Position numbers and translations under genes: made by a program
Source: Paracoccaceae bacterium
GTDB taxonomy: Bacteria > Pseudomonadota > Alphaproteobacteria > Rhodobacterales > Rhodobacteraceae
Reading direction: 5' to 3'
Length of the DNA: 43,160 bases
Assembly (NCBI GenBank): GCA_007126375.1
Contig: SLBI01000094.1
Coordinates: 1 to 43,160 of the forward strand
In this document: positions 1 through 39,675 of the stretch, one piece after another
Layout: each line of letters begins with the position of its first letter
Position numbering within the stretch: the stretch's first letter is position 1
Notes under the pieces: generated by a model
The model's database searches: none
The model's input: only the letters and a program-made list of their open reading frames with translations
What the model was told of the DNA's origin: nothing

Positions 1-310
1 GAGCGGACGAGGAAGTTCAGCAGGTCGGCCATGCCTTCGGGCACGCCGGTCGCGGTCTGCACCGTCAGGCGCAGGATCGTCCGCTCGCTGCTTTCGCTGC
101 GGGTGAAGCCGAGCCGCGTGTCCGGCGGAAGCCCCTCGCCCGGGTCAACGGCGAGAAGGGTCATCGCCGCAGTGCGCCAGCTGACCTCGAACACCAGTTC
201 GGTGACGCCGCCGCGGCTTTCGAACAGCAGCGGCAGCAGGGCAAGGTGAGCGTCCTCGCCCTCGGCCCGGCCGGGATCGCCGAAATGCAGCACCCGCTGC
301 GACAGGCAGA
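1..310 (-). other. Cohesin-like domain at the left edge (partial)
   Basis: The last visible residues (about 12412-12514) read RVLHFGD, then GGVTELVFEVSWRTAAMTLL, then ERTILRLTVQTATGV and MADLLNFLVR. The pattern of a G-V-x-x-L-x-F-x-x-x-Y/W strand followed by a-x-x-L-x-x-V and, about 30 residues on, L-x-L-x-x-A-x-G is that of cohesin-type domains. The rest lies outside the window. The match is by eye and the domain is truncated. Confidence 0.5.
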
Positions 311-15300: not shown

Positions 15301-18300
15301 GGTCCGCTCAGCAGATGGTAGAGCACCGCCGATCCGTCGGGATCGAGCGCCTCGACGGTGAAGGCAAGCTCCTCGCCGATCTCGGCCACGTCGGGCGGAA
15401 GGCTGGTGAACTCCGGCGCGCGGTTGGGTGACTGCGCCGCGGCGATGCCGGTGGTGAAGTCGAGCCGCTGGCGATCGGGCGTGCCGATGGCGACGGTACG
15501 GCCCAGCGTCGTGCCGCCGGGCGCAAGCCGGCCGTCCGGCGGCAATGCGCCGGCGAGGTCGATCATCCACAGGCCGTCTTCGGTCTGGCCCAGGGCGTCC
15601 TGCGGCAGCCCGGAAAAACCCGCCGCCGGATTGAGCAGAAGCATCGCCGGCAGGAGGACATCGGCATCGCCGCGGTTGGTGATCTCGACGTCATAGCTGA
15701 CGGTGCCGGTGGTGCGATCGAACCTGGTGGCGGCAAAGCGGACATCCAGAACCGCCGAGAGATCGTCGATGGCCTGAAAGCCGGTGACGTGGTCCATGCC
15801 CATACGCATGCCGAAGGCCGAGGTGACGGTCTCGCGCACGGTCAGCGTGTAGTCGTCGGGCAGCAGGCCCGGCAGCGAGAGCAGCACCCTGCGGCTGGCG
15901 ATGTCGTAGGCCACCGACACGGGGTGCACCCGGCCGACAGCCGCCCCCTCGATCACGTAGTTCCCGGGGTTGCGCACCGAGGCCGCAGAGTCGGATGCAG
16001 CGAAGAACATGTCCTGATCGAACTGCACGGTCAGAACCGGCAGCGGCAGCGGCACAAGCGCATCGGCCGGCGGGTTGGTGGCCCGCACGCTGGGCGCATA
16101 GGCGGGCGCGATCAGGTCCACCTGCCCGGACTGGCTGAGCAGCAGCCGCCCGTCCGCGGTGGCGATGATCGCATCGCCGCGGCTGCCGCCGGCGGCTATG
16201 TCGATCCGCCGCAGCGTGGCGAGGTCGACCATGGTCAGGGCGGACCCCTCCGCCGCCTCGCCCGTCCGGCCCACCGCGCCGGTGTTGGCCGAGACGAACA
16301 TCAGGTCTTCCAGCACCGTGCCGGGCTGGCCGAAGGCGATGGAGTCGATGCGGCTGTCGAAGGCGAAGACGGTTTCGGCGCGCTGTCGCTCGGTGAAGCG
16401 GACGACCTGAGCCCGGTCCGGCCAGGTGACCGCCCAGAGATCGCCATAGGCGTCGAAGGCGAGGCTGCCGACGCGCAGATTCTCGTCGCGGCTCCACTGA
16501 AGGAAACGGCCGGTCAGCGGATCGAAGGTGGAGACGCCGCCGTTGGTGCCGAGGTAGAGCAGCCCCGTCGCCTCCTCCCAGGCGAGACCCAGGGTGACAC
16601 CTTCACCGTGCCGTCCGAGGATGGCGCCGGTGTCCGAGTCGATCTCCAGCAGCGCGCCGCCGCCAGTGGTGGCCCAGAGCCGGCCCTCGCCGTCCTGCAG
16701 CATCTGGAACACCGGCTGGTCCAGTTCGGCCAGCAGCGTCGCTGCCGAGGCTTCGCCGCCGTCGCGGGTGAAGGCATGGATCTGGCCGCGGTTGGCGCCT
16801 CCCGATACAAGGATGCGCCCGTCGTCGAGTTCCACCAGCGCCATTGGCGCGATGCCGATTTGCGACGCCTCGATTCCGACGGCGAAGGCCGAGGCGACGA
16901 AGGGGCTGAGCACGCGGTCGAACTCGGCCGGGAAGGTCAGCGGATCGGCAGCGGGGATGCGCCGCTCGGCGAGATCGAAGATCACGCTCGGCGAGGGAGT
17001 CTCCACCGGCGGCGGCGGCTCGCCGAAATTGGGCGGCGTCGTGGCCGCAACGCTGGCCGGCGCGCCGAGGTTGACCGGCTGGCCGTCCGCGGCAACCGCC
17101 GCACCGTCGCGCGGGCGTTCGACATTGCCGGCGACATCGGTGGCAAGCGCGAGGAACTCATAGTGCCTGCCGGCCTCACCGTCGAAGATGCGGCTGCCGC
17201 TGGCCGCTTCGATCCGCCGCTCCAGGATGCGGAAGTCGCCGCCGTCCTCGGCGACATAGAGGGTGACATGGCGCACGCCCGAGCCGCCGCGGTCGTCCTC
17301 GGCGGCCCAGCTCAGATCGTAGCTGTCGGTGCCCGCGACACGCGTCACGGTCAGCGCGGTCTCGGGCGCGGCGCCGTCCACCTGCTGGATCAGCTCCAGC
17401 GTATCCTCCGGCAGCAGGTTGTCGAACAGCACCCGCGCCGAGGCGACGATCTCGGTGCCGGTCGGCACATCGGCGCGCGGGCTGACCGTCCAGGAGACGA
17501 AGCCATCGCCGCGCTGGCCGCCCGAGTTCGGCGGCAGCAGGCCCTGAGTGGTGCTCTGCATCTCCTCGCCGGTGAGCGGGTCGATCGCCTGGATCACCCA
17601 GCGCACCGCGGCCGGATCCTGGAACAGGTCGATCCCGGCGCTGACCTGCACGGCAAAGCCCAGCGTGTCGGTGAAGTCGATCCGGTCCTCGTAGAACCAG
17701 CGACCGGGCGGCACCTTGATCTCGATGTCGCCGATGCGGATGTCGCCCAGTTCGAAGCTGCGCGGATCGAGATCGGAATCGAGCCTTGTGACGATCTCGA
17801 CCCGGTTGGCCCAGGTGCCGGACTGCCCGTCGTTCTCGAAGCGCACGGAATAGGGCAGCCGCTCGGCCCCGGGCAACCAGCCCATCGTGTCGAAGGTCTG
17901 CGGACCGGCCAGAGACGCCAGCCGCCCGGCATTGGCGGGATCGGCGAAATAGTCCGAGAAGTCGAGCGAGACGAATTCGCCCACATCGACCGGCCCCGGC
18001 CCCATGATCTGGAAATCCGCCGGCAGCGCCGCGCCGCGGGCATCGAAGGGGACCCATGGGGTGTAGATGCGCACCGCCTCCCAGTGGGTGCGGTTGGTCA
18101 GGCCGAGGTCGTAATCCTCGAAGCGCGGCAGCTCCGGCACCGGGATCTCGCCCACGCGGTTGCGGCTGCGGCGCTCCTCCCAGAACTCGATCTCGGCCAT
18201 CAGCGTCGGGTCGTGGCCATACCAGGCGCGGACCTGCTCGAAGAACTTCAGCACATTGGCGGTAGAGCGGATCTCCTCGCCGCCGGGGCCGAACAGCACG

Positions 18301-21300
18301 CCCGAGGCGAGAACCGCCATCATCGAGATGATCTGCGGATCGAGCCGGATGGGCGGCAGATCGTCGATGTCGCGCAGGATGCCGGCCTGCTCCAGCCCGG
18401 CGAGGTAGAGCCCGACCCAGGCATCGGGATCGGCCGCCAGCGCCACCAGCGCCGGCAGCGCGGTCTCGTCCGCCAGCACCTTCTCGCGCAGCGCCAGCGC
18501 CTCGGCGGTCTGGAAGGCGACGAATTCCTCGCGCGTCATCGAGGTGGCGGCGGCGAAGATGTGGAAGCGGAAGGGGATGAAGGGGATCTCGTCCTCGCCC
18601 GGGACGGCCGCGTTCGCCTCGTAGAGCTCGACGAAGGGGAAATCCGCCAGCACCGCGCCGAGGGCCGGATTGATCTCGCTCGCCCGGTCCACCAGCGCGT
18701 CGAACCAGTCGGCGATGCCGCTCGGGCCGCCGGCGAGGAACTCGTCGAGGTCGGGCAGCAGGTTGCCCATCCGGGCGCGAAAGGCATCGAAGGCCTCGTC
18801 GTGCAGCTCTCGCAGGCCGGGGTAGGTGGAGATGTTGAAACTGAAGCCCGAAAAGCCGTCAGCCGGCGTATCGAGCAGAAACCCCGAGGTGGTGAGCTGG
18901 CCATCGGTGTTGACGATGCTCTCGAGGCCGGCCCAGAAGACATCCTCGTTCGGCCCGCCTGCGGCACCATCGGGCGTGCCGCGGACATTGGTGAAGAACT
19001 CGAGGAACGGCAGCCCGTAGACATAGGGGTTGAGGTGCAGTTCGGGCACACCGACCTGGAAATGGGTATAGGGCGCGTCGAGGTTCCGCAGGTTCTGAAA
19101 GGCGACCGAATAGGTCTCGGTGTCGCCGGCGAGCACCAGACGCGGCCCGCCGATGCCGATGGTCACGTCACCCTCGATCGCGCGCTCCACGAGGAAACGG
19201 TAGGGCAGCACCGCCTGTTCGCCGGAGGGGTTGGTGACGACGACGTCGTAAAGGCCGCGCTCGGCGCCGCGCAGGTCGAATACTGCCTGGATGCGGGTGG
19301 AATCGATCACACGCCAGTTCACCGGCGCGAATTCGGCAATGCCGGGGCGGATCAGGCGCACGGTGGCACCGGGGGCGAACTGCGCACCCTCGATGACCGT
19401 GGTGACATAACGCGAGTCGCCGCCGCGGTCGGAGCGGACATCGGTGACGACCAGCGGCAGAAGCTCGGCCATCAGCGTGATATCGGCGCCCTCGGCCGGG
19501 CCGGAGAAGTTGCGCACCGAGATGTAGTAGGTGCCCGGCTCGGTATCGGGCACCAGCGCAGTCAGGTTGGCCGAGATCGGGCCGCGATAGGTCGCGTCGA
19601 AGGCATTCGGCCCTGGCAGCGCATCGTGGCGCACGAAGATCTCGTTCGACTGGCGCGGGTCGGAGGAGGTGAGCGTGACCCGCATGGTCTCGCCCGGCGG
19701 CACGGTGATCCGCCACAACCGCTCCTGCCCCTGTGCCATCGGCACGGTGACCGGCGTGTCGAAGATCAGCGTGTCCACCGCCACCGTGATGGTGTCGGTC
19801 GAGGCGGTGGTGTTGTTGACGGCGTTTTCGGCCTCCCAGATCTGGTTGAAGATGTCGGTGCGCACGATGGCGCGATAGCTGCCTGGCGTGACCGCAGGCA
19901 TGATCGTGGTCAGTGTCATCTCGCGGGTCTCGCCGGGCAGGAGCGGTCCGCCGGCCTGCACCCGGCCAAGCGGTGGGTCGGAGAGATCCCAGGTGCCGTC
20001 GGTGGAAAGGAACACGCTGTCGGACCACTGCCCCTCGACCGGTACGTCGGAGTCGTTGCGCACCGTCCAGCGGATCGCAACCTCCTGGCCGGCGCGGGCA
20101 TTGGTCGGCACCACCACCTCGGTGACCACCAGATCGGCCGGCGGCGGGCGCTCGAAGATCACCGGAATGGCAGTGCGGGTGGCATTGTCGCCCTCGGCCG
20201 CGCCCTCGAACACGTCGCCACGCGGGCCGTAGCGGGCGGGATCGGTGACGACGAAGAGGTAGTAGGCATCGGTGGGAAGGTCCGAGGGCGCGACCAGGGT
20301 GCGGGTGACGGTGTAGCTCTCGCCCGCGCCCAGCCCGGTAAGGTGGCGGTGCTGGGTGACGAAGCGGTCGGCGCGCAGGTCGAGATGCGCGTCGCGGCTG
20401 AAGAACACCAGATCATCCCACTCCTGCTGCTGGAACGGCACCGGGCCGCCGAGGTTGGTGACGGTCCAGTTCAGTTCGAAAGGCTGGCCGCGCACCACCC
20501 GCTCGGGCATCGTCACGTCGCTGACGACGAGGTTGGGCGCGACCGCGGGAGCGATCGTCACCGCGGCCGAGGTGGTGTTGTTGCCCTCGCCCTGGAACTC
20601 GCGCACCGCACCGGTGGCATCGCCGCGAACGCCGGGCAGGCGCGGCGAGACGGTGGAGCGCACCAGCCCGCTGTCGGCCAGCCCGCTGTCAGCCACGGCG
20701 AGAACGTTGAAATCGCCCTCGATCTCGAAGGGCAGGGTTACGGTGACGGTTGCGGTATAGCTTTCGCCCGGCGCCAGCGCACCGTCGCGGCGGTGTTCGG
20801 CGGTGATCTCGCGACCGGCGACCTCGCGCCGGAGCAGGAAATCGCCCTCGTCCAGTGTCCGGTCCAGGGAGAGATAGACGCGGTCGGTCCAGATCTCCTC
20901 ACGCGTGGCACGGTTGCCGATGTTGGTGACGGTGAAGGTGATGTCCAGCGTCTCGCCGGCGGTCAGACTGTCCGGAACCACAAGGTCGGAGACCACCAGA
21001 TCGGGTTCGCGATAGACGATGGGCAGGTCGGCGCGCAATTCGCTGCCGACCGGGCTCTCGTAGCTCGCCTTCTCCAGCGCGCTGACACGGGTCGCGAGAT
21101 TGCCCTGATCGACGAAGAACCATGTGCGCTGCGCCTCGGTTCGTGCGGCGTGGAGGCCAGTGCCGTGCACGTTGGCGAAGACATAGACGTAATACGCGCC
21201 GTCGATGCCCGGCGGCAGGGCCGCTTCGATCTCGCGGGTATAGCTCTCGCCGGCGCCGAGCGGCGTCGCGTTGGAAACGGTTACCGACGCCAGCGGCGAG

Positions 21301-24300
21301 GCCCGGTTGTAGATGAACACCGGATCGCGGCTGACCCAGATCTCGTCGCGCCAGCGTTGCGTGAGATCCCACACCGGCACGTCGCTGTCGTTGGTGACGG
21401 TGTAGCGGATCGTCACCTTCTCGCCTGAAAAGGCGGTTTCCGGCGGCTCGACGGAGACCACGCGCAGGTTGGGGATGGCCGGCGTGACGTTCGTCACCGC
21501 GAAGGCCGAATTGTCCTCGGGCCGGGTGTCGCCGGCGGCAGTGGCACGGACGATGACATAACTGCCCGCGGCCGGTGGCGGCAGGCGCAGGCTTTCGGTC
21601 AGAGTGACGCTCTCGCCGGCGGCGAGACGGGGCGCGGTGGCACTGCGGATCGTCCAGTTCTTCGCCCCCGGTGCGTCCTTCACCGGCACGTTCGAGAGCA
21701 GAACCTCGTAGCTGAAGCTGGTGGTCGGCCCGGTGCCGGAGTTGGTGAGCCGGAAACTGACCTCGAACACGTCTTCGCCGGCGAGACCCGAGACCGCGCT
21801 CTCGGTCACCGACAGCACCTCGACGCCGATCTCGGGGTTCACCACCGGTGGCGGAACGCCGATCACCTGCATGACCGTGGGGCGACCCAGCGCGTCGGCG
21901 CCGCCGGCCTTGTAGTTGTTGGAGTTCACTTCGGCCGGATCGTCGGGGTTGACGTTGACGGCGAGCGTATCCTCCAGCACCTGGTCGTAGGGATCGACCC
22001 AGGGGGTGATGTAGTAGTTGCCCGACACCAATTTTTCGGGCAGCCGGACGGTGACGGTGCGGTCGTAACCTGCGCCGACCTCCAGCGCGCCTGCGTTGTA
22101 GTTCAGCGTGGTGAGGAGCACGTCGCCCTTGGCCGGATGCGGACGGGTGCGGTCGCGGGTGAGCCAGACCTGTTCGGTCCAGGCCCCGATGTTGGTCGGC
22201 CCGGCGCCGCGGTTGGTCACCGTATAGGTGACGGTGACGTCGCTGCCCTCGAAGGTCTGGAACGGGGTGACGACGTCATGCACCACCAGGTCTGCCAGCG
22301 GGATGCCCTCGACGAAGATCTCGTGCAATCGGGTGTTGTTGCCCTCGTTCGGCCATTCCTCGACCCGGTTGCCGCTGTCGGTCACCACGATCAGATAGAC
22401 CGTGCCACGGAAGCGATCGGGAATCCGGAAGCTCGCCTCGCGGCTGAGATACTGTTCGCCGGGGGCCAGCGCGGCCTCGTTGGTGAAACGCCCGATCAGG
22501 ATGTCGTCGCTCGAAACCTTGTCGTCGAGCGAGAGATAGACGCTGTCGGTCCAGTTCGGCACGTCCGTGGGCACCGGGCCCTGGTTGATCACCGTCCAGC
22601 GCAGTGCCCCGGTCGCACCCGCGGTCAGCCGGTCGGGCGCCTCGATGCTGGCGACCTGAAGGTCTGGCCGCGGCTGCACGGTTACGGCGATCTCGCTGAT
22701 CGAGGCGGTCTCGTTGTTGCCCTCGCCGTCGTGTTCGAACACGCTGTTGGCGGCATCGGTGACCACCACAACGCGGTAGATCCCGCTGATCTGCTTGGGC
22801 AGGACCACCTGCGCCGTGCGGCTGTAGCTGGTGCCGGCCTGCAGCGGACCGGTAAATGTGTAGCTGCCCAGCGTCACGTCCCGTTCGCTGGCCCCGCCGG
22901 TCTCGGAGACACGGCGCAGCAGGATGCGGTCGGTCCACTGCCCTTCGGCCGGGCCGGTGCCGTCGTTGCGCACCGTCCAGGAGATATCGACGGGCGTGCC
23001 CTCGGGCGCGGTTTCGGGGATGGTGACGGCGGCGACCACCAGATCGGGCGGCGGGCTCAAGGCTACATCCACCCGATCCGACCGCCCCGCGTTGCCGGCA
23101 TCGGTATAGATGAACTCGAAGGGCGCGCCGAGGGCAGTGCCCGAAACCCGGTCGCTGCCCGGCGTCTCGACGAAGAACCAGCTCGGACCGGTCCAGCCGA
23201 CCGGCAGCGTCACCGTCACCTCGCGGTCATAGGCATCGCCGGGCGCGAGGAAGCCGATGCGGTTGAATTGCCCAAGGGAGACCCGTCCGGTGCCGTCGGG
23301 ATTGTCGGCCACGAACACCCGGTCGTTCCACGAGGCGCTGTCGGTCAGCCCGATGCCGTCGTTGCGTACGGTCCAGCGCAGCGTCACCGGAAGCCCCGAC
23401 TCTGCCTCCGCGGGCGCCTCCACCCGCTCCACCACGAGATCGGCGTAGGGGATCGGCATGACATCGACAAAACCGTCAAGCCGCAGGGTATTGTCCGCCT
23501 CCAGCCCGTTCTCGAACACCGAAGACCCGGCATCCGTCGTGACGAACAGCCGGAACCGGCCGGTGAATCCGGGCGGCAGCAGCACCTCCTGCGTGCGGCT
23601 GTAACTTTCGCCGAGGTCGAGGCCGCCGTCATGGGCGACGCTCGCAAGTTCCAGCAGCGCGGGCGTCCCCGAGGGGCCGGAGATGCGCTCAAGCCAGATC
23701 CGGTCCACCCAGGCATCGGTCAGCCCGCGGCCGGTACCGGCGTTCTCCACCGTCCAGCCGACCGTCAGCCGGGCGGGATCGTTTACCGTCAGCTCGGGGG
23801 CGGTGATCGCGGTGACAACGAGATTGGCATAGGGCGCCAGCGCGACGGTCAGCGGCGCGGCGGCGGTGTTGTCGTCCTCGGCACCGGGCTCGGCCACCGC
23901 CTCGCCGGCATCGGTCTCGACCACCAAGAACCACGCGCCCGAGACATGTACCGGCAGCGTGACGTCCATCACCGCGCCCACCGTGGCGCCCGAGCCAAAG
24001 GGGATCGTCACCTCGGCCGGTCGCTCGGCCAGAAGGATCGCGCTGTCGTCCACGGCACCGGTGCGGCTGAGCCAGACGCGGTCGGTCCAGGACGCCTGCA
24101 CCGGGCCGGTGCCGGTGTTGGCGACGGTCCAGGCGACCTGCACGGTGTCGCCCGACTGGAACGGCCCGTCCGGCAGGGTGACGGCCGGCACCGTCAGGTT
24201 CGGATGGCGCAGCGGCACAGCCGTCGTTTCGGCCGTGTTGTTTCCCAGGCGGCCGGCCTCGAACACCCGGTCAAGCCGGTCGGCCTCGGCGGCGAAGCGG

Positions 24301-27300
24301 AACTCGCCCTCGCCCAGATTGATCGGCAGGGTGACTTCGACCGTGACCTCGTAGCTCGCCCCCGCGGCAAGATCGAAGTCGCGGTCGATCAGCGCGAGCT
24401 GCGTGCCCGCGGCAGACAGCCCCGGGCCGCGGATCAGGATACGGTCCTGCCATGGCGCACGGGCGACCGCCTCGCCGATGTTCTCGACCCGGAAGCTCAG
24501 AGCCACTCTCTGGCCGGGCACCAGATCCGCCGGCCCCTCCACCAGCGTCACCGCGAGGTCCGGCGCAGGCGCCGGCGAGAGCGTGAGATCGCCCGACGAG
24601 CGGGAGAAGTTGTTGGCCGTGGCGCCGCGCTCGTAAACCGCGGCCTCGGCATCGGTCACCACCAGCACGCGAAACGTGCCGGACACGCCCGGCGGAAGCG
24701 TGATGGTCTCGACCCGGCTGTAGCTGGCACCGACCGCGAGTCCTCCGGCGCGGGCGAACTCGCCGATCAGCACGTCGCCCGGGCCGGGCGCAGTGCCGCT
24801 GGCCAGATAGACCCGGTCGAGAATGCCCCCCGAGGGCGCGGGCACGGGATCGGGGCCGAGGTTGGCCACCCGCCAAGACACCTCGACGGTGGCACCGCCG
24901 ATAAACGCCCCCGACGGTGCGCCCACCGTCTGCACCGCAAGATCGGAATGGGGCGATGACAGCGTCAGTGCTGTGCCGGCGACGTTGTCGGCCCTCGTGT
25001 CGGGCTCGGTCACGGCGGCCAGCGCATCGGTCTCGACGAGGATGAAGGCGCCGCCCTCGATCCCGGTTGGCAGCAGGATGTCGGCGCTCACCTCATAGGC
25101 GCCGCCGGGATCCAGCCCGCCGCTGCGCGGCACTTCGGCCAGCAGAAGGTCGCCGGCGTCCAGCGTCGCGTCGGTGGAAAGCCACACCCGGTCCACCCAG
25201 CCGGCGGCGTCGGTGGCAACGCTGCCGGCGTTCTCCACCCGCCAGGCGATGCTGGCGACCTCGCCGCCGCGCGGATCGCCGGGCGCGCCGGTGATGCTGG
25301 CGACGAGATCGGCATAGGGCCGGGCGACCGACACGATGTCGGTGAAGGCGTAGTTGTTGCTCTCCGCCTGACCGATGGTCAGCCCGTCGCGCGCCTCGGC
25401 GATGCTGCCGGTGCCGGCGGCGTTGCTGTCGGCCCAGACCTCGATCCGGATGGTGCCCACCCCGGCGGCGCCGTCGGGCAATTCCAGCGTCACGCTGCGC
25501 AGCGCCTCGCCGCCGGCGGCGATCGGACTGTCGGTCACCGCCACGGCGACATTGTGCAGGATCTGCCCGGTGCTGAGGTTGCGCACCCGGACCCTGTCGA
25601 ACCAGCTTGGAGGCGTCGCTGCGGCGCCCTCGTTGCGCACCGTCCACGAGATCGCGAGCGGGCTGCCGGCAGCGGGCTCCACCTCGGCCACCGCAACCGC
25701 CGCGACCACCAGATCGGGCGCCGAGGCCCGGCGCATCGTCAGGCTGTTGTTGCTCTCGCCGGTGCCCTCGGGATTGGTCTCGAACACATCGCCGAAAGCA
25801 TCCAGCACGACCTGAAAGTCATAAAGCCCGGTCCCATCGATGCCCGCGGGCCAGCCGAAGGTGAGGCTGCGCGCCGCCACGGTGCCGGCTGCGACCGCCT
25901 CGTCGGCCGGGACGCGCAGGTCCTGGCTGAACACGATGCGCCCGGTGGACAGGTTGCGCAGCACCAGCCGCTCGGTCCAGCCGGTTTCGGCATCCAGTGT
26001 TCCGGCGTTACGGGTCTGCCAGCCGACCGTCACCGCCTCGCCGGCGGTCCAGCCGGCCGGCGGCGTGACCTCCAGCGCCTCGGGTAACAAATCGACATAG
26101 GGCGCCAGCGCCACCTCGATCGGCAGGTCGGAGGCATTGTTGAGTTCCGCGTCGAGCGTGACGTTGCGCTCGTCCACATCGTTGTTGACATCGAGCCGCA
26201 GCGACACCACCAGATCGCCGACTGCCACGACCCCCGGCGGCAGCATCAGCGTGACCGACTGCGTCACTGTGCCGTCGGGCGCGATGTCGCCCTGCGCGAC
26301 ATGGTCGTAGGGCACGATCACATCGGCCAGGATCTGTCCGGTGTCGACGCGCCGGATCGTTACCCGGTTGGAAAAGTCTGCCTCGACAGCCCGCTCGCCG
26401 CCGTTTCGCATGGTCCAGACCACCGGCACGCTGCCACCCGAGACGAGGTCTTCGTCGGTGTCGAGCGCAAGGCTCTGCACCAACAGATCTGGCCCGGGTT
26501 CGTATTCCAGCCCGGCCAGGCGGATCGGCGCCCGCTCCGGGTTGGCGTAGACGTTGAACGAGAAGTCGCGGCTCTCGGGATACCAGATACGCCCTTCGAC
26601 CAGCAGCAGATAGCGGCCGGTCTCGGGCATCTCGACGGTGCCGGCATCGTTGCCGAGATGGGTGCCGAACACCTGGCGACCATAGGGATCGATCAGCCGC
26701 CAGTAGGATCGCGAGTTGCCCTCGGTGCGGTCGAAAAAGAAGCGCGCACCGGCCTCGGCCTCGAAAGCATAGAGTTGCGTCTCGGTGCCCGGGGCGAGCT
26801 GATCGGTGACCGGCGTGCCGGGTGTGAGCGGTTCGGCCGCGGCAAGGTCGAGAACCTGGAAGGCATAGGCGCCGGTTGCGCCCCCGGTGGGGCGAAGGGT
26901 CAGGACATAATCGCCCGGGATCAGCCGCAGCAACGGCGCGCTGCCGGCCTCGCTGGCGTCCGAAGCGGTGAAACTGCGCGACGCCTCCACGCCCCGCGGG
27001 CCGCGCAGCTCCCATTGCCAGGCCGAGGAATCGGGCGCCTGAGCATCGACATAGACGACACTCTCCACCGTCACCGTGAAACCGTAGCGGTCGGTCTGGC
27101 CGGGCAGGTCGATGCTGCCCTCGACGCGACTGTTGAGATCGAGCGCCGAGAGGCTCGACTCGAGCGGCAGCAGGCGGAAGGCATGGCTGGCGCTGGCGGC
27201 ACCATCCTGGATGCGGCCTTCGACCAGCAGATACTGCGCCCCGGTCGATCGCAGCGTCACCGTGGGGATGTCGGTGCGCAGATCGGCCGAGGCGACGAGA

Positions 27301-30300
27301 TTGCCGTAGGTGTCGACGATCTTCCACTGGCCGATCAGACTCCCCTCGATCTGGTCGAGATAGAACTGCTGCCCGGCCTCGCCCTCGAAACGAAAGACGC
27401 GGCTCATGTTCGCCGGATCGTAGTCCGCCTCCACCCGCTCGCCGAGGGCCAGCGATCCGGCGGCGGCGAGGTCGTGCAGCACGAAGGCAAAGTCGCCGGT
27501 GGCGCGGCCCGATCCCGTAACGGTCAGCCGGTAGTCGCCGGCGGGCGCCGCCATCACGGCGGCGGCCGAGCTGCGGCTGTAGGCATCGGCCGCGCGCAGC
27601 GTGGTGCCGCCCAGCGTGCCACCCGGACCGGCGAGCGACCAGTTGAGATCGTTGCGATCGGTCAGGCTGTCGAAATAGAGCAGCGCCGCTTCCGCGAGGC
27701 TGAAGGTGAAGACCTCGCGGTCACCCGGGTTTCCCAGCGTGCCGGTCGCGATGGCCCCGAGGGAAAGGCCGGTCTGCGCCGCGGACGTCAGATGCGGGGT
27801 GATGCGAAACGCGGTCGGCTCCGTGTTCGACCGCCGCCCCTCGACCATCAGCAGATAGGCGCCGGCGACGCCGAGCGGCCGGCGTTCCAGATCATTGCCC
27901 AGCGCGGTTGGCCCCTGAACCAGCGTCCCGTCCGGCGCGATCAGCCGCCACCACGCGGTCGGGCCCGAGACGTTGACAGTTTCCAGGAACAAATCGGCGT
28001 CCGCAGGCCAGTCGAGCCGGTACAGACGCGTCACGTTGCCCGGATCGAGCGACGCCTCAATCACCGTGTCGGGTGCGAGCGGCTCTGCCGCCTCCACGTC
28101 CAGCAACGCGAGCGCGTAACTGCCGGTAGCGGTGCCGGCGGTGCTGACACGCAGGAAGAACTCGCCAGCCGGCAGTTCGTAGACCGTGGTGCCGGAACGA
28201 TCCACGGAGTCCGTGGAGGTAAAGGCGATGTCGCCGATGCCGACCGGCCCCTCGAAGGCCCAGCGCAGGGCCGAATTGTTGGTCCGGCTGTCCACGACAA
28301 TGCGCTTCGGCGCATCCAGAACCAGCCGCCAGCGGTCCACCCCGGCGCCGTCGACGATGGCGCCGGACAGTTCGGCGCCCAGCGTCGCGGTAAGCGCGGT
28401 GGTCGCGGGGGTCGTGGCGATGGCGACAGTGTCCAGCGTCATCCCCATCAGATTGGCGGTGCCCGACCGGGCCTGGATCGCCAGCCGCCCCTCCGCCAGC
28501 TCCATGCCGGGCACGAAACGGTCCGAGATGACAGCGTGGTCGGTGCCGTCCAGCGTCAGGGTCAGGCTGACTTCGGTGCCGCCGGACACGCGCTGCATTG
28601 ACAGCGCCAGCGCGGCCGGGACATCGACCAGATCGGCCTCGGTCAGCCCCAGAGTGCTCAGCGGCACCTGCACCAGCTGGCTGCCGAAATGCAGCCCGAC
28701 AGCCGGACCGCCCGAGCTGCGGAACATATCGAAGGCCACGCCCAGCACACCCGCGGCGTTCGGCGCGACGCCGAGCCAGGGCAACGCGCCGGCGGTGCCA
28801 TGGCTCCGTGTCGGGAACCATGCAGCGGTGAAGCCGTCGCCCGGCAGCCCCGCCGCCGGCGCGTCGATGCGGAAATCGAAGCCGATATCGACGCGCTCGT
28901 GCCGCCCGGTGGCGGTGGAGGAGAAGGCAACACCGTTGCGCTGCCCCGGTGCGTCGGGGGCGAGAAGCCGCAACACCGCATTGCCGCCGCTGGCGTCGAC
29001 CTCGACCGTAGCGGCCGGACCGTTGTCGTTCAGCAGCGCATGTGCGATGCCGGCGCCGCCCTCGAAATCCTCGACCGTGGCGCCGAAGGCCGGATCGACC
29101 GGGCTGACCGCGGCGGTCACGCGATAGGCGTTCTCGGTCGTGCCGTCGCGCAGATCGCCCTCGATCAGCAGGTGATAGCGCCCCGCCGAGGGCGCGACGA
29201 AGCTGTCGGTGCGCAGCGTCTTCGGCCCGATCAGCTGATAGCCGTCGGGCGAGATCAGCCGCCAGGCGGTGCGGCTGGCGGGAAACTGGGCGACCTGCAG
29301 CGCCACGGCCTGATGCCGGTCCAGATCGAGCGCCAGCACCTGGGTGCCGATACCGCCGTCCGGCAGGTTGCCAAGCCGCTCGCTGTTCGGCGCCAGCGTC
29401 ACCGCCTCGGCGGCGATGTCGCGCAACCGGAAGGCATAATCCCCGGTGGTGTCGCCATTGCCGCGGACCGTGAGCAGATAGTCGCCAGCCGACAGCCGCA
29501 ACACAGGATCGCCCGGGAACTGACCGCCGTCGGTCTGGTCGAAGCGGCGGTTGGCAACGACGGTGCCGTCCGGGCCGGTCAGAGTCCACAGCACCTGCGA
29601 GGTGCTGTGGTAGCTGTCCATGACCAGTTGCGCCGCAGTGTCCAGCGTGAAGGCGAAGCTCCGGCTCGCCCCCGGAACGTCGATGGCAGCCGACATCAGC
29701 GCGCCCGGTGTCAGCGGGATCGGCACCGGCGTGACCACCGGATGGACGGTCAGGCTGTAGGGCGCCCGGCCGCCAGCATTGACGAACCCTTCCAGCAGCA
29801 GCGTGTAACCACCCGCCGCCGGCAACAGCACATTGGCGCGGTCACCGGGGCTGACATTGCCGAAGACCTCGCTGCCGTAGGGATCGATCAGCCGCCAGCG
29901 CATGTTCGACGATGTCGCAAGGTTGTCGACGAACACCCGTTCGCCCGGCGCCGCATCGAAGCTGTAGAGCCGGGTCAGGTTTCCGGGCTCGAGGTCACCA
30001 GACACCGGGGCGCCAAGGGTCAGCGCCTCGGCCGTCGCCAGATCGCGCAGCACCAGGTTGAAGTTTCCCGTGCCTGCGCCGGAGGCGGTCACCATCAGCG
30101 TATAGTCGCCCGGCGGCAGCGCCAGCACCGGGTTGGTCGATCCCGACCCGGAGGCGTCGGCCTGCGCCAGATGGCGGTCCACCACCTGCCCCTGCGGCCC
30201 GGTCAGCCGATAGCGCAGGTCGTTGCGGTTGGTCAGGCTGTCGACATAGAGTTGCGTCGCCGTGTCCAGCGTGAAGGCATAGCGCAACTCCTGCCCCACG

Positions 30301-33300
30301 CGATCGATCCGGCCGGTGATGCCCTTCGGGATAAGATTGACCAGCGTGCCGTCCAGCCCGTTCGGCCCGGCGTCCGCCGTCGTTGCGCCGGTCACGGCAT
30401 CGAGCGGCAGGCGCAGCCGCAGCCCGGACTCGTCGCCCGCGAGCGGAGCCGACATCGTCGCAGCGATCTCCTCGGGCGTGCGCGCGACGGCCCAGAGGCG
30501 GACCTCATCGATCGCGCCGTCGAACATCCCGGTGGTCGAGAAATCCTCGGTGGCGCGGCCGATCAACAGCGGGTCGGAAAGGGTCCTCCCGGCGGCGGTG
30601 CTCATGTTGCGCGCCGCGGCTTCCTCGCCGTCGATGTAGATGATCTGCCGGCCCGTGGCCCGGTCGAACACCGCGGCGATGTGCACCCACTCGCCGAGCG
30701 GCACCCGCCCGCCCGAGGTCTGCAGCGTCTCGGACTGCCCGGTGGCGCGGTCCGCCCGGGTCCATACCGACCCGTTGGAGTTCAGCCGGATGCCATAGGC
30801 CCAGGCACCCTCGCCATCGCCCTTGTAGATCACCGGCACCCAGGGGCTGGTATAGCTCTCGACCTTCACCCAGGCCTCGAGCGTGAACGAACCAGTCAGG
30901 TTCAGCGTCGCGTCGTGTGGCACCTCGACGAATTCGGCGCCGCGCAGGGCCAGACCCTGCCCCAGCGCGCCAGGCACCGCCTGCGACGCAGCGCCCGGGT
31001 TGTCGCCGCCGACCTCGACCGCGACCGGGATCGCCTCGATCCGGAAGACCGAGACGGTGAAGGGCACGGTCTTCTGCGTATCGAGTGTGCGGTGGCTTTC
31101 CAGCACCAGCCAGTGGCGGCCGTCCACCTCGGGGCGCAGGTCGGCGATGTCGTTTGCCGCAAGCGGGCCGCTCAACTGCCGGCCGAACGGGTCGATCACC
31201 CGCCAGCGCGCCTGCGACGGGCTCAGCCCGAAATCCGACAGCTGCACATAGATGCGGTCGCCGGCCAGCGCATCAAGGGCGAAGGCCGTGGCGCTGCGGC
31301 GCATGTCCAGCGCCCCGACGATCCCGTCGCCGTCGATCTCGATCACGGGCGCCGCATCGAGGTCGAGCAGCCGGAGCCCGTAGGCGCCACGCGCGGCGAC
31401 ATTGCCGGACACCGTCAGCGTATAGTCGCCCGCCGGTGCGTGAAACGCGAAGTTGCCGCCCTGCGTGGTGCCGCTGTCGGTGAAGGCACGGTCGATGCGC
31501 ACCCCGCCGGGGCCGGTCAGCGTGGCGCGGATGTCGGACCGGTTCGACAGTGTGTCCCAGTAGAGCAGACGCCCGGCGTCAAGCGTGAAGCTGTAGACAT
31601 CTGTCTCGCCCGGCACGTCGATCCGGCCGGTGAAGGCCCCCTGCATCCCGGCGGTGAAATCCACCACCTCCGCATCGCCGCCGGCACTGCCCGTGTTGGC
31701 CACCGTCTGCGCCGGCACCGCCGGATCGTCGGCATCCTCCATCGCCAGCCGCAGCACCGGATCGGGCAGGCCCGCACCCCCGGCATAGGCCAACGCGGCG
31801 TCCTCGGCATAGAAGGCGACATCCCACAGCGAGAAGCCCGCCATCGCGCCCTCGAACGCGTTCTGATGCGCGGTTTCATGGCTCGCGCCCAGCAGCAGCG
31901 GCCGCGTCACCGCCCCGGCGGGCGAAACCCCGCGGATGCCATTGGCCAGGAGCCGCGGGCTGAAGGAGTCGAAATACCCCTCGCCGCGCAGCGTGCCGTT
32001 GGTCTCGATGTCGAAGGCCACGCCATTGCCCGTGGACACGACATCGTGCAGGGCAAAGCTCCACCGGCCGGGCCGCGCGAATCCCGGCGCCGGATCACCC
32101 ACCACCGGCGGGTCCCGCAGCAGCCCGCTGGTCTGGATGTTCACCGCGGCATCGCCGGTGTCCGGCCCGCTGACATTCAGCGTCAGCGCCTCGCCGCCGG
32201 TGCGCTCCCAATAGCGCAGCTCGACGTCATAGGTGGTTCCCGCCGCCAGCTCCACATCGCCCCAGCGCATGGTGTTGCCGGCGACGTCGTTGTCGAGATA
32301 GTCCAGCACCCCGCCAACCTCGTTGAGCACCTCGACAAGGTTGCCCTCGGCGTCGCGCAGCCGCAGCGTCGCGCCGTCGTCGGCGCCCAGCGTGAAGCGA
32401 TAGGTCCCGCCCGTCTCGACCTCCAGCTTCGAGCGGTAGACGATCCCGAAATGATCCTGGTTGGCCTCGGTGACGGAGGTGGCGGCCGACACCGGATTGC
32501 CGTTCAGATAGAGCCGCGTGATGTTGCGGTCGCGGTCGATCACGCCGACGACATGATTCCAGTCGTTCCAGTTCACGCTGCCCGAGGCGGTGGATACCGA
32601 CCGCTCCGTCCCGCCGGTCGCGACGCTCAGATGCGCATAGCCCGAACTGTGCAGCCACAGCGAATACTGCCGCGTCGCACTGCTGCCCTCGCCGCTGTAG
32701 ATCAGCGGCGTCCAGGTGGTCTGCGGCGTGTCGGGCCGGAACCAGAGCTCGAAACTGACACTGCCGGTCCGGTTGGTTGCCGGATCGTCCAGCTCGGCCC
32801 GGTTGAAGCCGTTGAACGCCAGCGCCGGCCGCCCGCCCGGCCCGGCGATGTAATCCAGCCCGGCATACTGCCCGGCGGCGTCGAGATCGGCGGGGAATTC
32901 CTGCACCACGGCGGGCTGCAGCACGAAACCGTAGGAGATCGCCCCGGTCTCGGGCTCGCGGGTTCGACCCTCGATCAAGAGCGTGTAGGTGCCACTGCGT
33001 GCGAGGCTGTGCAGATCGCGGTCCGAAAACCGCGGGCGGTTGATCTCGACATTGCCGGCCGGGTCGATCAGCCGCCAGTAGACGCCGAATTGCGAATTCT
33101 GCTCGCGCAGGACATTGAAGAGGAAGCTCTCGCCCGCCGTGCCCTCGAAACGGTAGATGTCGGTCTCGCGACGCGGTTCCAGCGTCGCCTCGACACGCTC
33201 GCCGATGGCAATGGCGGCTCCGGCGGCGAGGTCGCGCAGGGAGAAGTCATACGCCCCGGTGCCGGCGCCATCCTTCCATATGGTCACGGTGTAGCTGCCG

Positions 33301-36300
33301 GCGGCAGCCTTCAGCACCGGGTTGGAACTGCCGAAATCGACGCTGTCGGCGTCGCGCAGCCGATAGGTGCGGTCCAGCCCCTGCGGCCCCTGCACGCGAA
33401 GCCGCATGTTGAAATCGTCGGTAAAGCTGTCGAGGTAGAGGAAACTGTCGGCGTCGAGGTCGAACTCGAACACATGCCGCTGGCCGGGGCGCGCAACCTC
33501 TCCCTGCATCCGCTCCTCGAGGATCAGGGAACGGGGCGCCGGGCTCTGCGGATCCTGCAGTGTGAAACCATAGGCGATCGCATTGTCGGCTGCGAAATCG
33601 CCGCGCCCCTCGACCAACAGCAGATAGCGGCCGGCGAAAGGCAGCACCCGCGGCTCCTGCGCGGCGAGCGATGTGGTGCCGACCAGTTGCCGGCCAAAGG
33701 GGTCGATGATGCGGAAATTCGCCGTCTGCCATGAAACGGCGCTCGAGTTGGTCACCTCGGCGAGGGTGAAGACCTGCCCCGCTTCGGCCTCGAAGGCGTA
33801 GAGCGCCGTCGCGGCGGCCGGGTCGAGCGTGCCGCCGACCGGCTCGTCGAAGCCGATTTCCGTGGCCAGCGCGGCGTCGAGCAGACGGAAGGCGAACTCG
33901 GGACGCGTGTTCTGCGATCCGGTCACGGTGACGGTATAGGCGCCCGCCCCCGGCGCAAGCACTGGCGCGGCCGAGGACAACCCGCCGCTGCCGTTGCGCA
34001 GGTTGAAGCTGCGGTCGATCGCACCCGGGCCGGTGATCCGCAAGGTCGCATTGCTGTCGCCGCTCAGCCCGTCGAACACGAGGGTCGTCGCGGCGTCGAG
34101 CGTCAGGCTGTAGGCGACCGATCCACGCGGCCCGGGCACCACGCCGGCCAGCGTCTCGCCGGGGGCGATGGTGCCGTCGTCGGCCGCAACCACCTCGCGC
34201 AGCGCGGTGCTGTAGTCGATCGTTCCGTCGCCCTCGTAGACCCGCCCCTCGATGAGCAGCGTGTAGGTGCCCTCATGCGCCAGCGTCAGGACGCCGGCAT
34301 TGACGATGCCCTGCCCACGACGGATCTCGCGGCCCCACGGGTCGATCACCCGATAGGTCGGCGTCCAGGAGGCGCCGGCGACCGAGGCGGTGTCGAGCAC
34401 GAGGCTCTGCCCGGCGCTGCCCTCGAACCGGTAGATGTGCGTGGATCGCTTCGGATCGAGCGTGCCGGAAAAGGGATTGTCGAGCGCGATCGGCGCAGCG
34501 GCATCGAGATCGAGCAGACGAAAGCCGTAGGTGCCGCCGCCAGATCCGCTCGCGATGCGAAGCCGATAGGTGCCGGCGATCAGCGCGAGGCTGGCATCGG
34601 CATTGAAATCCGCGCCATCCGAACTGACCAGCGCGCGGTTGACGATCTCATCGCCGCGCGGGCCGGTCAGGCTCCAGGCCAGCGACCAGTGCCCTGCCTC
34701 CAGAACATCGAAATACAGACGGCGCGCGGTTTCGAGGGTGAAGACATAGTCGTCCATCTCGCCGCCGGCGGCCACCATTCCGCTGACCGACGTGCCCGGC
34801 ACATGCGCCATGCCTTCCAGCACCGGCGGTTCGTCGAAGCCGGCGTCGGCGATGGTGAAGCCATGGGCCTGGCTGGCGCCTTCGTCCCAGACGAAGCCCT
34901 CGACCAGCAGGGTGTAGCGGCCGGTCGCCTGCAACCCGATCTCGCCGACCGTGGCAAGGCGGCTGTAGTTCATGGCCACACGACCGAAGGGGTCGATCAG
35001 CCGGGCGTAGGGATTGCCGCTGATGTCGGCAAAACCGATGCGCTCGCCGCGCTCGGCGTCGAAGCTGAACAGCGCGGTGCTGCGCGCCGGCTCCAGAGCG
35101 ATCTCGACCGCGGCGTCGCGTGCCACGGCCGTGGCCGCGGCGAGGTCGAAGAGCCGGAAGGCGAACGCGCCGGTGGCGGCGCCGACGCCGTCGACCAGGA
35201 GGGTGTAGGCGCCCGGCGGCAGGTCGAAGGCCGGGTTGGCCGACGAGGGCAGGCCGGAGGCATCGGAGGCCGAGAAGGCGCGCTGGGTAATTTCGCTGCC
35301 GCGCGGGCCGACCAGCGACCAGACGATATCGCTGCGGTTGGTCAGGCTGTCGAGATAAAGGCGCGACGCCGTGTCGAGGGTGAAGCCGTAGGCAACCGCC
35401 TGACCGACGGCCGCGATCTCGCCGTTGACGACGGTGCCAAGCGTGAGGTCAAGCTCGGCGGTTGTCCTGGGCATCAGCAGGAACGAGAAATCCCGGGGCG
35501 CATTGTCGTAGGCATAGCCCTCGATCAACGTCAGATAGCTGCCGTCTTCGGGCAGAACCAACGGATCGACCACCGCCAGCCCCCGCGCCGCGATCTCCTG
35601 CCCGGAGGGACCGAAGACGCGCAGATAGATGTTGCCGCTGCCGTTGGGGGCGAACACCATGCGGTCACCCGCCGAACCATCGAAACGAAACAGCCGGGTC
35701 TCGGTGCCCGGCCCTTCGGTGTAACCGATGTCGAGGCCGCGGCCGGCACGGTCCGTCGGGGCCGGCCCGACGCCGTGATCGAAGCCCAGCGACAGCGCGA
35801 GCCCCTCGGCCGCCCCGGCGATCCGCTGCGCGTGGCGGGCGGCGATAGCCTCGGCACTCTGGGCGCTGTCCCACAGGCGGAACTCGTCGATGGCGCCACG
35901 CAGCCGGTACGACCCGTTCGCCGAAGCGCCGAGGACCAGCGGCGCAAGGCTGTGGGTCAGGCTGCCGTCGAAGTCCTGCTCCGCCACCACCTCGCCGTTC
36001 AACTGCAGCCGGAGCGAGGCGCCGTCGAAGCTTGCCGCGACATGCACCCATTCGCCGGCCTCCGGCAGCGCCGCCGTGACCGAACTGTCGGCGCCCGACC
36101 AGTTGTCCACGAAGAAGCTGATCGTGCCGTCGGAATTCAGATACAGCCCGTAGCCGTCGCCCCATCCGGTGCTGGTGCTCTTCATCCAGACCGTGCCATA
36201 CTGATCGAAGGCATCGACCCGCAGCCATGTCTCCACCGTGAAGGTCTCGGGCCGCAGCAGATCGTCGTCGGCAACCGTGATCAGCGGGCCGGTCTGGCCG

Positions 36301-37544: not shown

Positions 37545-37684
37545 GAGCGTACCAAGCGCCGCGAAATTGCGGACTCAAGGAATAAACGTTAACGGCTGCG
37601 CAGATGATTCTCAACGAATCTCTTTGTCGGGACCGCGCTGCGCGCGTAAACATCGGTTCGCGACTGCGAACCCATGGAACCGTG
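37545..37684. promoter_or_regulatory. Divergent intergenic region between the giant gene and the HlyD-type gene
   Basis: This 140-bp gap is more AT-rich than its surroundings and must hold both promoters. Weak sigma70-like elements are visible. On the minus strand, TTGAGA (37614-37609) and TAACGT (37591-37586) are 17 bp apart, for the giant gene. On the plus strand, TTGTCG (37624-37629) and TAAACA (37647-37652) are 17 bp apart, for the HlyD-type gene. A dyad TTCGC-GACT-GCGAA (37657-37670) lies just before the plus-strand start and could be a regulator site or an mRNA hairpin. The promoter matches are poor and alternatives exist. Confidence 0.35.
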
Positions 37685-38515
37685 ATGCCTGCCCGCTACG
37701 CCGCCCAATTCGCCGCCGCGACGATCATGGCCGCACTTTTCCGGGCCGGCGCCGCCGCGGGTGACGTGCCTGCACCGGTGACCTGCCTGATCCAGCCCGA
37801 GGAGACGGTGCGACTGGCTACGCCGGTCGCCGGAATCGTCGCCGAGGTCCTGGTGGAGCGCGGCGACATGGTTGCTGCGGGCGATGTGGTCGTCCGGCTG
37901 GACGGAGCGGTCGAGGAGATGGCCCTGTCGCTTGCCGTGGCGCGTGCCGAGAACCTGACGCGCATCCGCGCGCTCGAGGCGCGGGTGGCGTTCCTTGCCG
38001 CGCAGCTCGACCGTGTCGAGCAGTTGGCGGCGCGGCAGGCGGTGGCCGGAACGGCGGTCGAGGATGCGCAACTGGAGCTGGACGTGGCCCTGCTCGACCT
38101 CGACGAGGCCCGGCTTGCCCGCGCCCTCGCCGGGATCGAGGCCGAGCAAAGCCGCGCGCTGCTGGATCAGAAGACCCTGCGCGCCCCGATCGCCGGCGTC
38201 GTCAGCGAGCGGCTGCTCAGCCCCGGAGAATTCCGCGATCCGCAGACCCATGTCATCACCATAGCCCGGCTGGATCTGCTGCGGGTCGAAGCCTTCGCGC
38301 CGATCGGCTATTTCGCCGATCTCAGCCTCGGACAGGCGGTCACGATCCGGCCCGAAGAGCCGATCGGTGGCGCCTTTCCCGCCACCATCACCATCATCGA
38401 CCGGGTATTCGACGCCGCCACCGCGACCTTCGGTCTGGCGATGCGGCTGGAGAACCCGGATCTGGCCCTGCCGGCCGGCCTGCGCTGCGAGCTTGACTTC
38501 ACCGCTCCGGACTGA
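37685..38515 (+). CDS. HlyD/RND-type periplasmic adaptor (membrane fusion protein), small
   Basis: 276 residues with the chosen ATG. The start was picked because it gives a short basic N terminus and hydrophobic signal (MPARYAAQFAAATIMAALF, then AGAAAGD); the frame is open back to an upstream ATG at 37604, but that extension would bury the signal. The mature part shows the two halves of a lipoyl/barrel-sandwich fold (TPVAGIVAEVLVERGDMVAA and LRAPIAGVVSERLLSPGEF) joined by a coiled-coil hairpin of Leu/Ala/Glu/Arg repeats, then a beta-barrel (LRVEAFAPIGYFADLSLGQA) and a short C-terminal domain. These adaptors link an inner-membrane pump to an outer-membrane channel. No pump or channel gene is visible. 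It is short compared with typical HlyD. Divergent placement suggests, but does not prove, a link to the giant protein. Confidence 0.85.
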   Translation: MPARYAAQFAAATIMAALFRAGAAAGDVPAPVTCLIQPEETVRLATPVAGIVAEVLVERGDMVAAGDVVVRLDGAVEEMALSLAVARAENLTRIRALEARVAFLAAQLDRVEQLAARQAVAGTAVEDAQLELDVALLDLDEARLARALAGIEAEQSRALLDQKTLRAPIAGVVSERLLSPGEFRDPQTHVITIARLDLLRVEAFAPIGYFADLSLGQAVTIRPEEPIGGAFPATITIIDRVFDAATATFGLAMRLENPDLALPAGLRCELDFTAPD

Positions 38516-38715: not shown

Positions 38716-39675
38716 TCAGGCGTAGATCCGTTCGGCGATCGGTGTCGCGGCGATCCGTGCGTGCAGACGATCCAGCAGCGACCGCTCCGCCCGGTTCAGC
38801 ACCGCTTTGGGATTCCAGACGAGATGCACGTCGATCGCAGGCGGAGCTTCATGAGGCGGCAGACGCCAGAGCAGCCCGTCGGCAACATCGCGGGCCACCA
38901 CATGCAGCGGCAGCGGGCCGATCCCGAGACCGGCAATCACCATCCGCCGGACCTCCTCGAGATGGCTCGAAGTCCCGATGACCTGCTCGCTCAGATCGGA
39001 TTCCGCCCGCAGCATCGTGACGGCGCGCAGCGCGTCGTGCAACCGGTCGGTCTCGAAGCTGACGGCCGAGTGGCCGGCGAGGTCCGCCTGCGTCAGATCC
39101 CGCCGACCGAACAACGGATGCGACGGGCCGCAGAACAACCCGAAGAACTCGCGATAGAGGCGCAGGTATTCCAGGTTCGGGTCGCGCCGGTGCACGAGAC
39201 AGATCGCCAGCGAGGCGCTGCGGGCGGAGACGGCCGCCAGAGCCTCGGCCGAACGATGGACGCTGATCGACAGGGTCGCGCGCGGGTGCGCCGCATGGAA
39301 CTCGGCCAGAACCTGATCGAACAACGGGCAGACGACATGGCTGGCCATGGCGAGGCGGACGTTGCCTGTCACCTCGTCGGTCATGTCGCGCATCAGCGTC
39401 GAGAGCCTGAAGATCGCCCCGTGGATCTCGACCGCCTCGCGATAGAGCAGATGCCCGGCCCGGGTCAGTTCGAAGCGGCCCGGCGCCCGGTCGATCAGTT
39501 TCTTGCCGACGCGGTCCTCAAGCCTTTTCAGTGCGGTGGAGACCGAGGGCTGGGTAAGCCGCAGCCGTTGCGCGGCATCCGTGACCGATCGGGACCGCGC
39601 CAGCACGACGAAGGTGCGCAGCAGGTTCCAATCCAGTTCGCGGGTCAGGCGCTCGGCGTTCACGGGCGTGTCCAT
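38716..39675 (-). CDS. LysR-type transcriptional regulator
   Basis: 319 residues, normal for the family. The N-terminal winged helix-turn-helix is clear (LLRTFVVLARSRSVTDAAQR and QPSVSTALKRLEDRVGKKLI, about residues 18-58), followed by ELTRAGHLLYREA. The rest is the two-lobed LysR substrate-binding domain, with NVRLAMASHV, LFCGPSHPLFGRRDLT and GLGIGPLPLHVVA near the end. LysR regulators bind as tetramers upstream of a divergent target and respond to a small molecule in the C-terminal domain. It is divergent from the ABC importer (108-bp gap), so it most likely controls that operon and itself. Its start codon overlaps a 15-bp dyad. Effector unknown. Confidence 0.95.
   Translation of the reverse strand: MDTPVNAERLTRELDWNLLRTFVVLARSRSVTDAAQRLRLTQPSVSTALKRLEDRVGKKLIDRAPGRFELTRAGHLLYREAVEIHGAIFRLSTLMRDMTDEVTGNVRLAMASHVVCPLFDQVLAEFHAAHPRATLSISVHRSAEALAAVSARSASLAICLVHRRDPNLEYLRLYREFFGLFCGPSHPLFGRRDLTQADLAGHSAVSFETDRLHDALRAVTMLRAESDLSEQVIGTSSHLEEVRRMVIAGLGIGPLPLHVVARDVADGLLWRLPPHEAPPAIDVHLVWNPKAVLNRAERSLLDRLHARIAATPIAERIYA

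Follow-up and report, generated by a model that had tools for sequence, protein, structure and literature searches.

The DNA analysed here (the window) is a stretch of 43,160 nucleotides, which is the whole of contig C382 from a Paracoccaceae genome of 75.66% completeness. It contains a giant gene with a LEPR-XLL domain and a small adaptor gene divergent from it. The features are listed below, with the evidence for each in brackets.

3..37544, minus strand: LEPR-XLL giant gene, 12,514 aa in the window, with no stop, running to the contig end (ORF)
37329..37397, minus strand: LEPR-XLL domain of the giant (NF012209)
37545..37684, no strand: divergent intergenic region of 140 bp between the adaptor and giant genes (ORF ends)
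37651-37676, intergenic: dyad with 11-nt arms, 91% complementary, not conserved
37685..38515, plus strand: small periplasmic adaptor of the HlyD/RND-adaptor type, 276 aa (Pfam, TIGR01730, AlphaFold2 model, Foldseek)
38012..38047, plus strand: codons of the hairpin-tip RLS-type motif, Arg110, Leu114 and Ala121 (column counts in alignment A2)
38716-39675, minus strand: LysR regulator, to the right of the adaptor (ORF, Pfam)
39718 to the contig end: ABC uptake operon with two permease-type ORFs, a binding protein and an ATPase (ORF, Pfam)

The initial annotation described a 276-residue adaptor lying 140 bp from the giant gene and divergent from it, which the ORFs and the Pfam matches confirm. An alternative reading from 37604 would give 303 aa instead of the 276 aa from 37685; the N-terminus of the 276-aa reading is, by eye, a signal-peptide-like segment. 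The start codons in alignments A2 and A4 were picked by a script and carry no evidence for the true start. The adaptor was also said to have no transporter or channel gene on its right. This stands for export genes, none of which is found among the right-hand neighbours, but not for transporters in general: the nearest one, about 1.2 kb away, is the ABC uptake operon, a solute importer. Shared regulation of the gene pair through the dyad had been suggested as well. It was rejected because the dyad core (7-bp arms) occurs once in the window and is absent from the loci of five relatives; in addition, no sigma-70-type site was found in the intergenic region (other promoter types were outside that search).

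The giant gene starts with GTG at 37544 on the minus strand. A second contig of the same genome, C29, adds about 220 aa, giving a total of about 12,734 aa; LEPR-XLL giants are among the largest bacterial proteins. The LEPR-XLL model NF012209 matches residues 50-72, near the N-terminus, with 31.3 bits (cut-off 17). The other domains are laminin-G-like, PPC, PA14, CARDB, Ig-like, and cadherin-like. A search of the window part for RTX nonapeptides gave no strict match and one relaxed match. The N-terminus is basic; behind it, residues 26-40 are weakly hydrophobic, with a 15-residue hydrophobicity peak (1.5) that equals that of the signal-like segment of the adaptor. The giants of several relatives show no such stretch ahead of LEPR, as judged by eye. 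LEPR-XLL itself is mentioned in passing in the accessible parts of two papers. A second LEPR-XLL gene running to a contig end was seen in two relatives, at G000:C101 (L061, 10812-12875) and G003:C116 (L062), with no adaptor match there.

The adaptor passes the Pfam models HlyD_D23 (59.1 bits, cut-off 30), HlyD_3 (58.5, cut-off 22.2), and Biotin_lipoyl_2 (32.2, cut-off 29.8), and also the RND/MFP adaptor model TIGR01730 (127 bits, cut-off 94.9). It fails the type I HlyD model TIGR01843, reaching 27 of the 208.65 bits required. The AlphaFold2 model (mean pLDDT 91.9) has lipoyl, hairpin, and barrel elements. Foldseek showed likeness to MacA, AcrA, MexA, and EmrA, with a TM-score of 0.72 to MacA (3fpp); all of the 50 PDB matches listed were tripartite-pump adaptors or annotated efflux parts. 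In the predicted model the chain stops soon after the barrel, and therefore probably leaves no room for a membrane-proximal domain. AcrA, MexA, MacA, and EmrA share the lipoyl, hairpin, and barrel domains and an RLS-type motif with the adaptor family. However, the adaptor cluster contains no RND or MFS partner gene, and the family carries its own cysteines, Cys34 in 24 of 28 members and Cys268 in all 28. A Cys34-Cys268 disulfide is possible; the other four members do not have Cys34.

The RLS motif has a role in docking to the tips of TolC-type channels. Among the 28 members of the adaptor family, the hairpin tip has R in 28, L in 26, and S or T in 24. The name RLS for this hairpin signature was taken from a figure legend. 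The fold and the motif together point to a part that would reach an outer-membrane channel, as judged from the sequence and the predicted structure.

The adaptor had been proposed to belong to an export route with its other parts elsewhere, and a look for type I secretion genes left of the window had been advised. The first 121 bases of C29 are identical to the end of the reverse complement of the window. Therefore C29 continues the window, with the remaining parts of the cluster beyond the far end of the giant. After the end of the giant come four genes that share one strand. Their products are a DUF3467-type protein, a GAF-HlyD-type protein of 622 aa whose single hydrophobic segment spans 354-381, a 717-aa PqqD-M50-HlyD protein, and a SecA-like ATPase, with an ATG at 5252. 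GAF-HlyD and M50-HlyD are thus directly upstream of the SecA-like gene, and the adaptor is at the other end of the giant. The Pfam names of the C29 proteins were taken from orthologues in the relative G004; for the HlyD, PqqD-M50, and SecA proteins, they are borne out by NCBIfam scans of the copies in the genome itself. An R-L-S pattern after residue 380 also matches in one of seven GAF-HlyD rows and two of seven M50-HlyD rows, at scattered places. Export-type genes are accordingly found beyond the left edge of the window, as proposed, but they differ from a canonical type I set: HlyD-type parts are present together with a SecA-like ATPase, and no ABC exporter was found in the window or the C29 cluster. 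The adaptor is real and is not an orphan.

The SecA-like proteins have 606-699 aa, compared with 896-993 aa for housekeeping SecA. The G004 orthologue contains SecA_DEAD, a P-loop, and PP_bind, with no SecA_SW match in Pfam. In the window's own genome, the best stretch of TIGR00963 covers 3-473 of 787. The scores lie under every SecA and SecA2 cut-off; for the SecA2 models they are 494.7 bits against 930 (TIGR03714), 521.9 against 1085 (TIGR04397), 423.7 against 725 (TIGR04221), and 400.3 against 1100 (NF012136). All 13 rows of alignment A3, which leaves out one G014 row in the wrong frame, agree in Walker A (TGEGK), DEAD, and the motor residues further downstream. By pattern, Walker A occurs in 66 of 66 SecA-like proteins and a DEAD-type motif in 61. 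In a quick SecA tree, the 66 SecA-like rows fall on one side of a branch with SH-aLRT 100, opposite 22 housekeeping copies that all come from loci of the 41 relatives. The M50-HlyD protein has several hydrophobic segments within 155-452, and the HExxH and NPLLxFD residues are conserved in 40 of 40 proteins. Its PqqD-M50 half (residues 19-404) is nearest to NF041824, the daptide RiPP protease model, with 147.9 bits under a cut-off of 300. The daptide-type maturation protease has the same PqqD and M50 layout; however, the M50-HlyD protein here carries an added HlyD arm.

The genome of the window and 40 relatives formed the first comparison set (41 genomes). A close adaptor (E<1e-30) was found in seven of them. 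A close M50-HlyD (at least 473 bits) is present in the same seven genomes, as is a second SecA with a score higher than that of any housekeeping copy; these seven are also the genomes with LEPR-XLL among the 25 searched for it. The adaptor lies within 1 kb of the LEPR-XLL start in six of the seven, five divergent and one tandem, and in the seventh (G005) it is on separate short contigs. The full layout was also found on the plasmid NZ_CP085155.1 of Pseudosulfitobacter sp. DSM 107133, in the order adaptor, divergent giant (43731-81944, with the LEPR-XLL motif), DUF3467, a second adaptor-type protein, a PqqD family protein, and a 'translocase'.

For a wider survey, a single scan used the M50-HlyD alignment as query and yielded 80 loci (of 146 relatives), which belong to Alphaproteobacteria, Gammaproteobacteria, and Thermodesulfobacteriota. 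GAF-HlyD precedes M50 in all 74 loci with room for it, and a SecA-like gene follows M50 in 66 of 74 (65 by script, and L157, which the filter missed). DUF3467 is present in 39 of the 80 loci. Of 64 loci with room, 24 have the adaptor behind the SecA-like gene and in the same orientation. In the eight loci without a SecA-like gene, the adaptor directly follows M50, and a LEPR-XLL ORF is next in five. These eight genomes (seven Candidatus Thiodiazotropha and one Ctena symbiont) showed only a housekeeping-type SecA, which suggests that the housekeeping SecA can serve in some versions of the route.

Of 50 genomes chosen through M50, 49 were searched; they contained LEPR-XLL in 43 cases and the adaptor in 49, counts that show position and not independent co-occurrence. 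The adaptor places were counted at 149 bits or more, with rows of 117.6 bits and less set aside. Of the 68 places, 52 flank a LEPR-XLL giant: 30 on its 5' side (22 divergent, 8 tandem) and 22 on its 3' side (17 on the same strand). Of the rest, one lies at a greater distance and 15 lie on contigs with no LEPR match. Adjacency in other genomes, which the initial annotation had named as a check, is supported, with six of seven genomes in the first set and these 52 places.

Several loci of the survey deserve separate mention. At L063 (G003:C129), a SecA-like fragment at the contig end is immediately followed by a second adaptor paralogue. The G014:C3 locus (L056, L057, L108) has an adaptor with an internal stop, a giant spread over several frames, and a broken SecA-like frame; it looks decayed. 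In L164 (12463-13650) and its Thiodiazotropha relatives, the adaptor has a C-terminal extension that is SPOR-like by eye, with no SPOR match in Pfam. Between DUF3467 and GAF-HlyD at L049 (4555-5214, G006) is a protein of 219 aa whose tail looks PEP-CTERM-like by eye and which has no Pfam match. On G006:C9 (L110, 2-10930), genes for a large LEPRMMFDGAA protein, for a relative of M50-HlyD with 31% identity, and for a small adaptor-like protein form a sister arrangement, in a stretch without a SecA-like gene. An apparent adaptor-giant fusion in L161 and L165 was rejected, because the joined frames cross stretches that read X.

An even sample of 398 Pseudomonadota genomes was drawn independently of the locus. 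The searches scored few candidates per genome, so absences in the following counts are soft. LEPR-XLL was found in 41 genomes and the adaptor in 27. LEPR-XLL is present in 25 of the 27 adaptor genomes and in 16 of the other 371 (Fisher p 1e-26, a value that overstates independence since the genomes are related). M50 matches occur in 89 genomes, in 25 of them at 560 bits or more, a line that was chosen after the scores were known. All 25 of these close M50-HlyD genomes have the adaptor, and 24 have LEPR-XLL. With respect to M50, their adaptor is no more than 2.3 kb downstream and on the same strand in 20, far upstream and divergent in two (each about 1 kb or less from the LEPR-XLL start), near upstream in one, and on another contig in two. 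Among the 64 genomes with M50 matches below 560 bits, 12 have a best score of 400-535 bits; LEPR-XLL is found in eight of these and the adaptor in one. Seven of the 16 LEPR-XLL genomes without an adaptor match hold this second M50 type, and therefore other versions of the export route seem to exist. Across genomes, the adaptor and LEPR-XLL giants tend to occur together.

A locus of this type has been described before. Kamneva, Poudel and Ward 2015 (PMC4452313) reported, in the part of the paper available, secondary SecA_DEAD proteins without SecA_SW that are linked to GAF/HlyD, M50/HlyD, and HlyD/biotin-lipoyl genes. They proposed SecA as the ATPase and M50 as the pore, and called the broader role completely unknown. 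The locus here agrees with that description in its second SecA without SecA_SW and in the co-encoded GAF/HlyD, M50/HlyD, and HlyD proteins. The order GAF, M50, SecA, HlyD given there for the Methylobacterium extorquens AM1 operon (META1p2402-2399) also matches the order here, with the adaptor family last. The locus here differs in its LEPR-XLL giant, DUF3467, and PqqD domain, and in the position of the window adaptor, which is 5' of the giant and not behind SecA. The available text of PMC4452313 does not mention LEPR, giant, PqqD, DUF3467, or cadherin. In M. extorquens AM1, a protein of 15,831 residues, META1_2412, lies in the island META1_2402-2415 (Vuilleumier et al. 2009, PMC2680597, available part). 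According to the two reports together, the island that holds this giant has the secondary-SecA operon META1p2399-2402 at its edge. The open literature yielded nothing that links LEPR-XLL or giant proteins to the secondary-SecA locus and no established export route for LEPR-XLL giants; most subscription journals and preprints were outside that search. The locus type is thus known but uncharacterised, and its tie to the LEPR-XLL giants is new as far as the search extended.

Two other known systems have parts in common with the locus. Type I secretion (HlyB-HlyD-TolC; LapBCE) shares HlyD-type parts and, probably, a TolC-type exit. In contrast, here a SecA-like ATPase replaces the ABC exporter, the adaptor remains under the TIGR01843 cut-off, and the window part of the giant has no RTX repeats. 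The cargo of the Gram-positive accessory Sec system (SecA2) consists of very large surface proteins, so that a second SecA stands beside a special, very large surface cargo in that system as it does here; however, the SecA-like protein here has no C-terminal SecA part, and its partners are HlyD and M50 proteins.

Based on these results, the adaptor probably forms the outer component, facing TolC, of an export machine dedicated to the adjoining LEPR-XLL giant, and the machine would be the secondary-SecA locus. The direct basis of this export model is gene content and order, co-occurrence, the predicted adaptor fold, and the conserved motifs; the cargo role of the giant, the pore, the channel, leader recognition, and leader cleavage are what we infer. 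The parts would be the SecA-like motor without scaffold and wing, the PqqD-M50-HlyD membrane protein, GAF-HlyD, DUF3467, and the soluble adaptor. A first step might be recognition of the LEPR-XLL leader region in the cytoplasm, either by the motor or by the PqqD domain. The motor would then drive the giant across the inner membrane, via SecYEG or the M50 protein, and the leader could be cut at the M50 site. The HlyD arms and the adaptor may guide the giant to a TolC-family channel encoded elsewhere, and the giant would end outside the cell or on its surface. On a more speculative level, it is possible that LEPR-XLL is the leader mark of a separate, ABC-free and SecA-powered Gram-negative secretion system for proteins of about 8,000-15,000 residues, in which the PqqD-like domain reads the leader as in RiPP enzymes, the SecA-like protein pushes, M50 cuts, and the adaptor couples to a TolC-type channel. 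The secondary-SecA locus had no known cargo in 2015; its link to the LEPR-XLL giants supplies a likely partner for each of them and opens both to testing.

Several observations count against the export model. No outer-membrane channel was identified for the cluster, and the window adaptor has Ala at the third RLS position. The DEAD-type pattern is missing in five of the 66 SecA-like proteins, and eight genomes have M50-HlyD and the adaptor without a SecA-like gene. G274 has the adaptor and M50 with no LEPR-XLL match, and in the even sample 16 of 41 LEPR-XLL genomes show no adaptor match, although some of these are likely to be misses.

Alternatively, housekeeping SecA and SecYEG might take the giant to the periplasm, with the cluster, whether or not it includes the SecA-like protein, handling only the outer-membrane step and leader processing. 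The Thiodiazotropha-type genomes, which keep M50-HlyD, the adaptor, and in five of eight loci the LEPR-XLL ORF with a housekeeping-type SecA alone, are consistent with this, as are the basic N-terminus and the weakly hydrophobic residues 26-40 of the window giant. However, the SecA-like gene is kept in most loci (66 of 74) with its motor residues conserved, and the hydrophobic stretch before LEPR is not seen by eye in the giants of several relatives; this division of labour is rather unlikely. A further possibility is that the giant exits via a canonical LapB-type type I system encoded elsewhere, and that the secondary-SecA cluster has another job. LapA-type giant adhesins use LapB-type type I systems, and the genome of the window does have a LapB-type ABC exporter on contig C9 (TIGR03375, 865.7 bits, cut-off 693.1), which also counts against the export model. 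Nevertheless, TIGR03375 is over its cut-off in only three of the seven LEPR-XLL genomes (and one of 18 others), and it is absent from G006, G012, and G014, which are 99-100% complete and contain LEPR-XLL. Considering also that the part of the giant inside the window has no strict RTX nonapeptide, and that the adaptor fails the TIGR01843 model, canonical type I export was put behind the export model and is clearly unlikely. The adaptor could lastly be a stray RND/MFP efflux adaptor beside the giant by chance, as its TIGR01730 score and efflux-like fold would allow. This was rejected as very improbable, because its position is conserved, either next to LEPR-XLL giants or following the SecA-like gene; the co-occurrence in the even sample also speaks against it.

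The genes around M50 in the 80 loci were also grouped. The largest groups are HlyD (73 loci) and SecA-like (63 loci). Two groups of 23 are DUF3467 itself and an ORF that ends just before it, taken as the end of the giant. Three smaller groups, of 14, 9, and 6, consist of ORFs that run antisense to the cluster in the members listed. In 13 loci there are ABC ATPase genes, at varying places outside the cluster in the eight inspected; the three representatives scanned have no ABC_membrane domain, and one has an importer-type TOBE_2 domain. LysR genes are found in seven loci (two representatives scanned), EAL/GGDEF in eight, and MscS in six (one representative scanned per group). A SapC-family gene, whose name is S-layer-associated (one copy scanned), is present in or behind the cluster in seven loci: between M50 and the SecA-like gene in four (L137, L138, L142, L147), and behind the SecA-like gene in three (L143, L144, L146).
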